Origin: Alphaproteobacteria bacterium
Lineage (GTDB): Bacteria > Pseudomonadota > Alphaproteobacteria > Thalassobaculales > Thalassobaculaceae
Reading direction: 5' to 3'
NCBI GenBank assembly: GCA_024742275.1
Contig: JANSYS010000003.1
Location: forward strand, 1-64,000
DNA length: 64,000 bases
Shown piece after piece: positions 37,940 to 41,801 of the stretch. Both the position numbers and the translations under genes were made by a program. Within the stretch, counting starts at the first letter, position 1, and every line of letters begins with the position of its first letter. Under the pieces are notes generated by a model. The model saw only the letters and a program-made list of their open reading frames with translations, ran no database searches and was not told the DNA's origin.

Positions 37940-38006
37940 AGCCAGGGCCTAGGTGCAGGGAACGACACAGGATACGGATCGAACCCGCCGGAGAAAAGGT
38001 TGCGCC

Positions 38007-38639
38007 ATGCACGACAGACGCAGGAACGACGGGAGGCCGGGCTTCGGGGCCGTGCAGACGCCCGGAACCGGCGCCGACGGGGATGTGTGGATCTTCGGCT
38101 ACGGATCGCTCATGTGGAGACCAGGCTTCGAGCATGTGGAGCGCGCGGACGCGCTGCTGCGCGGCTTTCGTCGTCGGTTGTGTGTGGTCTCCCGGCATCA
38201 TCGCGGGACGCCGGCCCGGCCCGGTCTCGTGATGGGTCTCGACCTGGGCGGCGCGTGCCGCGGCGTCGCCTATCGGGTGCCAGAAGCGGCGGTTGCGGAA
38301 ACGCTGGCATATCTCGACGACCGGGAAATCGCCCACTACCCGGTCTATCGCCGGTCAACGGTCTCGATCGATCTCGGCCGACGACATCGGTGCCGGGCGA
38401 TCACCTACACCGTGGACCGGCGCGAGGCGGACTACGCCGGCGCTCTCTCGGTGACGGAGCAGGCGGCCATCGTCGCCGGTGCGGCCGGCTTGTCCGGAAC
38501 AAATCCCGACTACCTGCGTCAGACCGTCGAGCATATCCACGCTATGGGGCTGCGGGACCGGGCGTTGGAGGCTGTTCTCGCCGCTCTTGCGCCACCCTCT
38601 TCCACTCTGGAAGAAATCGCAATGCGCGCTTTGAAATAA
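38007..38639 (+). CDS. Gamma-glutamylcyclotransferase (ChaC family)
   Basis: A 210-residue enzyme that splits glutathione to 5-oxoproline and Cys-Gly. The N-terminal substrate-binding motif WIFGYGSLMWRPGF and the glutamate-bearing region YLDDREIAHYPVYRR (catalytic Glu of the family) are intact. GGAGAAAAGG is well placed before the ATG at 38007. The reading frame continues upstream but without support. It precedes the lodA-like gene by 67 bases in the same direction. Confidence 0.87.
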   Translation: MHDRRRNDGRPGFGAVQTPGTGADGDVWIFGYGSLMWRPGFEHVERADALLRGFRRRLCVVSRHHRGTPARPGLVMGLDLGGACRGVAYRVPEAAVAETLAYLDDREIAHYPVYRRSTVSIDLGRRHRCRAITYTVDRREADYAGALSVTEQAAIVAGAAGLSGTNPDYLRQTVEHIHAMGLRDRALEAVLAALAPPSSTLEEIAMRALK

Positions 38640-38706
38640 ATTTCACTCGCGTTTAGATTGTTTTCACGATTATCCTTCCGGCCAGCTCAGGGACTGGGAG
38701 GAAGCA

Positions 38707-40695
38707 ATGACGACATCGATAGCGGCCGACGGGACGATCGTCCGTGCGGCGATTCACCCCGGAATCGGGATCGCCCGCGTCGGCAACGCGCACGACGCCT
38801 TCTATATCGGCCCGCAAGTGCCGAACCCGACACCGCTGCCGCCGGAGCATTACCGTGATGAGACCGGCGCCCTAAAACGCGAGGCGGCCCTGTTCCGCAT
38901 CTACGGGTACAATGCCGCCGGCGAGGTGGTAGCGGAGTTGACCAGCGACAACGCGGACATCACCTGGAGCGTCCACGTCGCCAATCAAAAGTCGGGCTGG
39001 TACCAGTTCCACGCCGCCCTCGACAGCGAGCAGGCCTTGAGCACCGTCGATCCGTCGCAACGGGCTCCGGCGCTCCGCAACGCCAGTGTCGCGGATCGGT
39101 CCTCCCTCATCATCGATCCGGGCGCTCGGCAGATTTCGGGCGCCTCGAAGGACGGCCCGGCCTACCGCTTCGATACCGGCAGTTTCATGGGCAAAAAGGT
39201 CTACCTCGGGGAGCTGCGAACCGACGAACAAGGACGGCTGCTCTTTCTGGGCGGCCACGGCGTGTCTGCCTCCCACGACGGACAGCCCGCCAAGGATTTC
39301 GCCAACAACGACGGCTGGCACGACGACACGTCCGACGGCCCGGTCGAGGCGACGGTGACCATCGGCGGGCGGGAGATCCCGGTCGACTCCGCCTGGGTGG
39401 TGACCGCACCACCGAACTACGGCCCGCAGCAGAAGTCGGTGCGCACCCTCCACGACCTGATGACCGATGTCGCGATCCGGGCCGGCATGCTCCCCCGCCC
39501 AGGAGCGCCGCTGTTCGGACGCGACATCCTGCCGGTGTTCGTGCGCCAGACCGATCTGCAATGGGTGAACGCCGGTTTCGCCGCCGGTTTCGGCTTCGGC
39601 ACGGCGAAGGATTTCCGGGCCTCCGACTGGATCGACACGTTGCGCAGTCCGGGATCAGATCAGAAGGAACTGCGCCAGCAGCTCGCCAATTCCTTCCGGG
39701 TGTTCGAGCGCGACGGCTGGTCGCCGATGCCCTGGCCCTGGATCTATGGCGACGCCATGGACGTTCCCCCGGCCAAGCTGCCGGAACAGCACGTGGCCCT
39801 GACCGATACTCAGCTCGACATGCTGCAGCAGTGGGCCGCCGGCGAGTTCGATCCGGGCGACGATCCGATCGAGACGGCGGCGACGCTCGACGCGCTGCCG
39901 CTGGCGGACCGGCCCCGCGCGCTCGACAAGGCGGCGATGGACTTCTGCCTCGCCGACGCCTTCCACCCCGGTTGCGAGATGACCTGGCCCATGCGGCACC
40001 CGTCGATGTACCGCGCGCCCTATCGGATTCGCGGCGGCGGCGAGGTCCCCAAGGATGGCGTCCAGCCCTATGGCAGCAAGTTGACCCCGGAGGTCGCGGT
40101 CTCGTCCACCGGGCCGCTCTACGGCCAGGCGCCGGGCAGCATCACGCGCTGGATGGCCGTTCCCTGGCAGACCGACACGGCGAGTTGCCGCTCCGCCTAC
40201 TACGCCGGCTACGGCCCGAACTACGATCCCTATGTGCCGACCTTCTGGCCCGCCCGGGTGCCGAACCACGTGCTGTCCGAGGAGGACTACCGGAAAGCCG
40301 TCGACACCGGCCTGCCGCACGAGGAGCGGGTCGCCGCCTTCAACCGACGGGCAAGCTGGTTTCAGACTCTCGGCAGCGCCGGATATCTGTCGCAGATCAA
40401 CTACATGGTCGATCATTTCGACCAGATGGGTCTGGTGGCGACCCTGCCGGGCGTGCTGGACGACCCGGACATCCCCTCCGAGATCCAGGTCGCGAAACTC
40501 GGACCCGGGGCGCCTCCCTACACGGGCACGACCGTCGGCCTGACACCCGTGCACGACGACGATGCCGCCCCGACCCTGGACAAGAACGGCGAGGCGGCCT
40601 CGACGGCCAGGATGGCGCGCCGGACCGGCCTACCCGACGATCAGATCGTCGCCGGCTACATTCGAAAGGTGGCGCCGGGCAAGCGGGTCCGGTGA
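38707..40695 (+). CDS. LodA/GoxA-type cysteine-tryptophylquinone (CTQ) dependent amino acid oxidase
   Basis: A 662-residue protein of the LodA family. Its characterised members oxidise lysine (LodA) or glycine (GoxA), releasing ammonia and hydrogen peroxide. The family start IVRAAIHPGIGIARVGN is present. The expected quinone-forming residues are Cys423 in FHPGCEMTWP and Trp487 in the WxxDxxxC motif VPWQTDTASC (Cys494). The 64-residue spacing is close to the 65 residues between Cys516 and Trp581 of Marinomonas LodA, as I recall them. No signal peptide is evident, as in other LodA proteins. GGGAGGA precedes the ATG. The stop overlaps the start of the flavoprotein gene. Substrate not predictable. 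Confidence 0.88.
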   Translation: MTTSIAADGTIVRAAIHPGIGIARVGNAHDAFYIGPQVPNPTPLPPEHYRDETGALKREAALFRIYGYNAAGEVVAELTSDNADITWSVHVANQKSGWYQFHAALDSEQALSTVDPSQRAPALRNASVADRSSLIIDPGARQISGASKDGPAYRFDTGSFMGKKVYLGELRTDEQGRLLFLGGHGVSASHDGQPAKDFANNDGWHDDTSDGPVEATVTIGGREIPVDSAWVVTAPPNYGPQQKSVRTLHDLMTDVAIRAGMLPRPGAPLFGRDILPVFVRQTDLQWVNAGFAAGFGFGTAKDFRASDWIDTLRSPGSDQKELRQQLANSFRVFERDGWSPMPWPWIYGDAMDVPPAKLPEQHVALTDTQLDMLQQWAAGEFDPGDDPIETAATLDALPLADRPRALDKAAMDFCLADAFHPGCEMTWPMRHPSMYRAPYRIRGGGEVPKDGVQPYGSKLTPEVAVSSTGPLYGQAPGSITRWMAVPWQTDTASCRSAYYAGYGPNYDPYVPTFWPARVPNHVLSEEDYRKAVDTGLPHEERVAAFNRRASWFQTLGSAGYLSQINYMVDHFDQMGLVATLPGVLDDPDIPSEIQVAKLGPGAPPYTGTTVGLTPVHDDDAAPTLDKNGEAASTARMARRTGLPDDQIVAGYIRKVAPGKRVR

Positions 40696-41801
40696 CCGGC
40701 CGTCCCTTCACCTGGGATGCGGTCGTCGTCGGTGGCGGGCCCGCCGGCGCGATCGCGGCGATGCGGCTGGCACCCAAGCACCGGGTGCTGGTTTTGGAGC
40801 GCGCGGCGGCTCCGGCGCCCCGCATCGGGGAATCGCTGCCACCGGCCTGTCGCCCCCTGCTGCGCGATCTCGGCCTGCTGGAGCGCATGGACGTCCATCG
40901 CCCCTATCTCGGCAACCGCAGCCTCTGGGGCGGCGGCCCGGCGACCCACGACTTCCTGCGCGACCCTCAGGGGCCGGGCTGGCATCTGGACCGCGCCGCC
41001 TTCGACGACATGCTCATGGCCGCCGCGACCGAGGCCGGAACGACACTGTGGCGCTGCGTGACCCTGCGGGCGGCAACCCGGCTGGCCGGCGGGTGGGGCC
41101 TCGTCACCAGTCACGGCCACCGGATCCGATGCCGCGTACTGGTCGACGCCAGCGGACGGAGCGCCGCACTCTGCCGTCGTCTCGGAGCCCAACGCCAGGT
41201 ACTGGACCGCCTGACCGCGGTCTATTGCCGGTTCCGGCCGGGGTCCGCGACATCGACAGACGGTTTCAGCCGGATCGAGGCGGCGGCCGACGGTTGGTGG
41301 TACACGGCCCCGCTACCCGCCGGCGGTCGGGTCGCCGCCTATCACACCGACAGCGATCGACCGGCCATCCGCGACCTTGGGAAGGCGAGCGGGTTCCTCT
41401 CCGCCCTCGCGCAGACCCGGATGATCGCGCCCGAACTGGGTTTGGAGCGCGCACGCATCGCCGACGGTCCGCATGTCGTTCCCGCTCACAGCGCTCGCTC
41501 CGTCCCGCCGACCGGCGATGGTTGGGTCGCGGTCGGCGATGCCGCGCTCGCACTCGATCCGCTTTCCTCCCAGGGGCTGTTCAACGCGCTGTTCACCGGT
41601 ATGGCCGGAGGCGACGCGGCGGCGGCGATCCTGGCGAACGACGGCAAGGCCGGGCACGCCTACGCCAACCGGATCGCCGAGATCCATGCCGCCTACACGT
41701 CCAACCTGGCCGATTTCTACGGAGCCGAGGCCGTTCTGCATGAGGGAGCGTTCTGGGCCCGGCGCATGCCGGCGCCGCGGCAGGCAATGGCCGGAGCCTG
41801 A
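40692..41801 (+). CDS. LodB-like FAD-dependent oxidoreductase (CTQ maturation)
   Basis: A 369-residue flavoprotein of the tryptophan-halogenase/geranylgeranyl-reductase type. The FAD fingerprint is WDAVVVGGGPAGAIAAMRLA, with PRIGESLPP and WVAVGDAALALDPLSSQG further on. LodB proteins are needed to build the CTQ cofactor in the partner LodA. The GTG start overlaps the lodA-like stop (GTGA), which ties the two genes. An upstream extension of this frame lies inside the lodA-like gene and is rejected. Confidence 0.86.
   Translation: MTGRPFTWDAVVVGGGPAGAIAAMRLAPKHRVLVLERAAAPAPRIGESLPPACRPLLRDLGLLERMDVHRPYLGNRSLWGGGPATHDFLRDPQGPGWHLDRAAFDDMLMAAATEAGTTLWRCVTLRAATRLAGGWGLVTSHGHRIRCRVLVDASGRSAALCRRLGAQRQVLDRLTAVYCRFRPGSATSTDGFSRIEAAADGWWYTAPLPAGGRVAAYHTDSDRPAIRDLGKASGFLSALAQTRMIAPELGLERARIADGPHVVPAHSARSVPPTGDGWVAVGDAALALDPLSSQGLFNALFTGMAGGDAAAAILANDGKAGHAYANRIAEIHAAYTSNLADFYGAEAVLHEGAFWARRMPAPRQAMAGA

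Follow-up and report, generated by a model that had tools for sequence, protein, structure and literature searches.

The lodAB-like gene pair found in the window (the whole 64,000-nucleotide stretch of DNA that was analysed) is recognisable, from its domains and tree position, as a new member of a kind already known, the LodA-like group III. It is highly likely to encode an oxidase of this group together with a dedicated maturase. In the proposed mechanism, the partner LodB, an FAD protein, would complete the conversion of Trp514 and Cys494 into cysteine tryptophylquinone (CTQ), and the substrate, a small amino acid or amine, would be bound through its amine as a covalent adduct of the quinone, within a pocket that includes Phe198, His420 and Asp490. 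The oxidised product would be released by water and the CTQ re-oxidised by O2, giving H2O2 and ammonia. CTQ formation, oxidase chemistry and peroxide release are modelled here on LodA and GoxA and, like the substrate class, are put forward conditionally. The family, the partner gene, the conserved cofactor and active-site residues, the group placement and the accessory position come from the sequence comparisons described below.

Group III is widespread, and as of 2015 none of its members had been characterised (Campillo-Brocal et al., 2015, PMC4417212). The literature found, later papers included, gives neither a substrate nor any biochemistry for a group III protein. A compact member of 662 aa that carries no fused domain, has its own maturase and has congeners without the pair would be convenient to express and to delete.

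The gene pair

The lodA-like gene lies at 38707..40695 on the forward strand and encodes 662 aa without an N-terminal catalase-like domain. It is followed on the same strand by the lodB-like gene (40692..41801; 369 aa), whose GTG start overlaps the lodA stop in a shared GTGA at 40692-40695. The coordinates, both reading frames, the length of the larger product and the stop/start overlap had all been given correctly in the original prediction. Its assignment of the larger protein to the LodA family also stood, with Pfam LodA_N (6.4e-84; 281.7 bits against a cut-off of 26.3) and LodA_C (1e-41; 142.6 bits against 25) both found on this reading frame. Comparison with the sister species shows two intact genes that evolve under purifying selection (dN/dS 0.15 for lodA and 0.37 for lodB), and they are therefore not chance open reading frames. 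The open frame around lodA extends to 686 aa, and no frame that could hold a fused domain was found upstream of it. It had been suggested that a length of 662 aa, being below that of LodA (726), might point to a new substrate; however, LodA-like proteins are mostly 600-700 aa long (PMC4417212), so the protein is not unusually small and this argument does not hold.

A structure model of the window LodA, built from 59 sequences, reached a pTM of 0.87 and a mean pLDDT of 81.7, with low confidence in loops adjoining the active site, including 418-421 and 497-512. All 50 PDB matches obtained with this model at E <= 0.001 were GoxA or LodA entries. Domains, NCBI models, the alignment to LodA, the tree and the structure matches agree on a LodA/LodB-type quinoprotein pair, as originally proposed.

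The partner, correctly foreseen as a flavoprotein, belongs by Pfam to the FAD proteins of Trp_halogenase/LodB type, and its best NCBIfam models are GoxB (7.8e-63), LodB (1.1e-57) and QhpG. Its scores of 195.7 and 212.7 bits for NF038171 and NF038174 fall below the 400-bit cut-off, with homology over the full length, and it lies under the equivalog cut-offs of LodB, GoxB and QhpG alike. An FAD-binding motif, VVVGGGPAG, was read from the translation at 40722..40748 (forward strand), and QhpG, a peptidyl tryptophan dihydroxylase (7ctq), is amongst the PDB matches. Across phyla, lodB adjoins lodA in nearly all relatives, around which no other conserved neighbour of lodA was found. In the LodB tree, the deeper order of which is poorly resolved, the window LodB pairs with the same sister species and is separated from the GoxB encoded elsewhere in this genome, so it looks cognate to the window LodA.

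Cofactor residues

The published cofactor residues of LodA are Cys516 and Trp581, and every LodA-like protein has a Cys and a Trp aligned with them (PMC4417212). When the window protein is aligned to 3weu, the numbering of which is that used for LodA in the same paper (2ymw numbering is 20 higher), Cys494 (40186..40188; this and all codons below are on the forward strand) falls on LodA Cys516, and Cys occupies this column in 104/104 rows. LodA Trp581, residue 601 in 2ymw, is the second W of SYWWPPQSPWDV, a motif that corresponds to TFW(514)PARVPNHV in the window protein; the LodA side of this alignment scores weakly (7.4 bits) and depends on the motif together with the exact match of the residue number. 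The counterpart motif of PlGoxA, SWWAANLPVHVL, is aligned by the profile of the window protein with TFWPARVPNHVL, which again gives Trp514 (40246..40248), and Trp is found in every row that reaches this column. Trp551, which is conserved downstream of Cys494, had at first been taken as the cofactor Trp and was discarded since LodA Trp581 sits in a WWPP motif that leads to Trp514.

A different pair, Cys423 and Trp487 (in WQTDTASC), had been named as the cofactor residues in the original prediction. In the alignment of 104 rows, position 423 (39973..39975), within the motif HPGCE[MV]TW, is Cys in all 84 group III rows and Val in the 13 rows of GoxA type; the group I-like rows have Ile or Ala there, and LodA itself has Ile. 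Because LodA has Ile and GoxA has Val there, Cys423 cannot be the cofactor Cys of the family; it is a Cys specific to group III. The predicted cofactor residues are Cys494 and Trp514, and the earlier pair is wrong. The correction matters in practice, as mutants of Cys423 and Trp487 would probe the wrong positions.

Placement within group III

The window protein falls in a clade of 85 rows (SH-aLRT 100) that also contains proteins assigned to group III in PMC4417212, for instance the catalase-fused protein of Oceanospirillum beijerinckii. In this quick tree, the details of which are tentative, it lies in the clade together with an 81% relative from a Thalassobaculaceae MAG (L022), and the two stand next to catalase-less Comamonadaceae proteins with a support of 94. 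Relatives of the same family that carry the fusion sit elsewhere in the tree, which suggests horizontal transfer.

An N-terminal catalase-like domain is carried by 52 of the collected relatives and is absent from the window protein. Other group III proteins also do without it (PMC4417212), the fusion being common in the group and not required. A search of this genome with the fused domain itself found no copy of it. No Pfam match to the domain was obtained, and PF00199 was rejected as a probe since it misses the domain even in G025, whose protein is fused. Two loci from same-family genomes, L006:1294-4302 and L007:1282-4293, encode a group III LodA fused N-terminally to a catalase-like domain, which in L006 has no Pfam match at E 0.001.

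Some further arrangements were noted amongst the relatives. In Ramlibacter sp. WS9, a second pair of LodA-like and LodB-like genes (L038:11095-14099) is found within a few kb of the group III pair and on the other strand. A group I-like lodA from a bacterium of the same phylum is immediately preceded by a ferritin-like gene (PF12902; L121:78-3294); a ferritin-like neighbour has been reported for fungal genes (PMC4417212). The search of the viral collection returned one fused relative only, on a putatively viral contig (L135:3900-7991) where radical SAM and 2OG-Fe(II) oxygenase genes lie close to the fused LodA-like gene and its lodB. At L020/L021 (G026 contig C17:118616-120455) a LodA-like gene is divided between two overlapping reading frames, possibly through a frameshift or a sequencing error.

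Active site and substrate

Phe198 (39298..39300), aligned with PlGoxA Phe316 and LodA Tyr211, is Phe in 81/84 group III rows and in all 13 GoxA rows, against Tyr in the four group I-like rows. His420 (39964..39966), aligned with PlGoxA His583, is found throughout group III (84/84) and GoxA (13/13), with Ser or Cys in the group I-like rows, and Asp490 (40174..40176), aligned with PlGoxA Asp678, is Asp in 104/104 rows. The loop bearing PlGoxA Tyr766/His767 is present in the GoxA-type sequences shown and absent from the window protein and from the group III rows shown. Work on PlGoxA mutants reportedly showed that glycine binding requires His583 and that turnover requires His767; structures of the corresponding mutants are included in the PDB match list of the window LodA.

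The closest NCBI model is GoxA (NF038173), at 405.6 bits and below its cut-off of 750, and the LodA lysine 6-oxidase model (NF038172) gave 205.7 bits, below its cut-off of 600. A paralogue in the same genome passes the GoxA model with 1133 bits and has a twin-arginine-like start, RRDFLAGAG; unlike this GoxA, the window LodA shows no Tat-like start in its translation. No LodA equivalog over the cut-off was found among 398 genomes of the phylum, and lysine oxidases were therefore compared only through PDB alignments.

From the failed cut-offs, the active-site columns, the separate GoxA and the group placement, the substrate is expected to be a small amine or amino acid, most likely not L-lysine and probably not glycine; it probably differs from that of the genome's separate GoxA. 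The original view that the substrate is not readable from the sequence fits with the active-site columns, the tree position and the score under the LodA cut-off, by which lysine is probably excluded. For the group as a whole, this pair included, we somewhat favour a CTQ oxidase acting on neither lysine nor glycine, in which the Gox-type His, Phe and Asp are kept, the Tyr-His loop is missing and an invariant Cys stands three residues after the His, with this branch lacking the catalase-like domain.

Genomic neighbourhood

A chaC gene (37953..38639, forward strand; Pfam ChaC 3e-42) ends 67 bases before lodA on the same strand and appears to be a resident neighbour, not part of the system. In two congeners (G002 and G004) tadA comes immediately after chaC, with no lodAB, whereas in the window and in the sister genome G003 lodAB sits between the two. 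The position of lodAB is accessory, and these four genomes fit an acquisition in one lineage as well as a deletion in the other. The GTG start of chaC at 37953 is probably too early, as relatives align only from about residue 35-40. The other flanking genes are housekeeping-like and encode an EAL/GGDEF protein, a DUF2125 protein, a tadA-like deaminase, a pseudouridine synthase and a Cons_hypoth95 protein.

A promoter-like site (TTGAAA, 17 nt, TAGATT) at 38631..38659 on the forward strand, which overlaps the last chaC codons, was detected only by a consensus scan, with 1 hit where 0.2 would be expected. The AT-rich stretch at this site is also present in the sister species, and lodAB may have its own promoter.

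Alternative explanations

The pair could encode a second glycine oxidase, with the chemistry and substrate of GoxA and another location or regulation, as Phe198, His420 and Asp490 match PlGoxA and GoxA is the closest NCBI model. The score, however, is far under the GoxA cut-off, the Tyr766/His767 loop of the GoxA-type sequences shown is missing, and the genome already holds a GoxA over the cut-off. In Marinomonas mediterranea, moreover, a mutant without lod and gox no longer had either of the known activities, that on glycine included, though its group III gene was still there (PMC4417212). We consider a second glycine oxidase possible but rather unlikely. The family and the operon layout would equally suit a secreted, antimicrobial lysine epsilon-oxidase of the LodA/AlpP kind, but about 206 bits against a LodA cut-off of 600, active-site columns with Phe where the group I-like rows have Tyr and His where they have Cys or Ser, and a tree position in group III and not group I make such an enzyme very improbable. 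The earlier remark that LodA-type enzymes make peroxide and can be antimicrobial stands as far as the analogy with LodA/AlpP goes, by which an antimicrobial role is no more than possible.

That the partner does not mature the oxidase, so that no CTQ forms and the protein has a non-quinone role, is in line with a partner under every maturase cut-off and with the lack of experiments on group III in the literature found. Yet neither the cofactor residues nor Asp490 vary, lodA retains lodB as its neighbour across phyla and the pair is under purifying selection, and we give this reading very little credence. A role in glutathione breakdown, in which the oxidase would act on glycine, cysteine or Cys-Gly released with the help of the upstream ChaC, is scarcely credible. 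The original hint at such a link was right about the gene, which lies directly upstream in one sister genome too, but gene order contradicts the link itself: in two congeners tadA comes straight after chaC and lodAB is missing, and none of the loci examined from outside the genus has chaC next to lodA. A promoter-like site between the chaC and lodA coding regions also stands against it.

Comparison with known systems

With LodA-like group III (PMC4417212) the window protein shares the clade, the invariant HPGC motif, the cofactor Cys and Trp and the LodB partner, and it differs from the 52 fused relatives in having no N-terminal catalase-like domain. GoxA (PlGoxA, 6byw/6eer; NF038173) is alike in fold, in cofactor residues and in the Phe198/His420/Asp490 columns, but the window protein scores 405.6 against 750 bits, has no Tyr766/His767 loop, and carries Trp427 and Cys423 where the 13 GoxA-type relatives have Tyr and Val. 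The LodA lysine 6-oxidase (3weu/2ymw; NF038172) resembles it in fold, cofactor residues and an operon with LodB, and is set apart by Tyr211 in place of Phe198, by Cys at the column of His420 and by the score of 205.7 against 600 bits. The partner matches LodB/GoxB and QhpG (7ctq) over its full length and has a like FAD-binding motif, and its gene holds the same position as that of LodB/GoxB.
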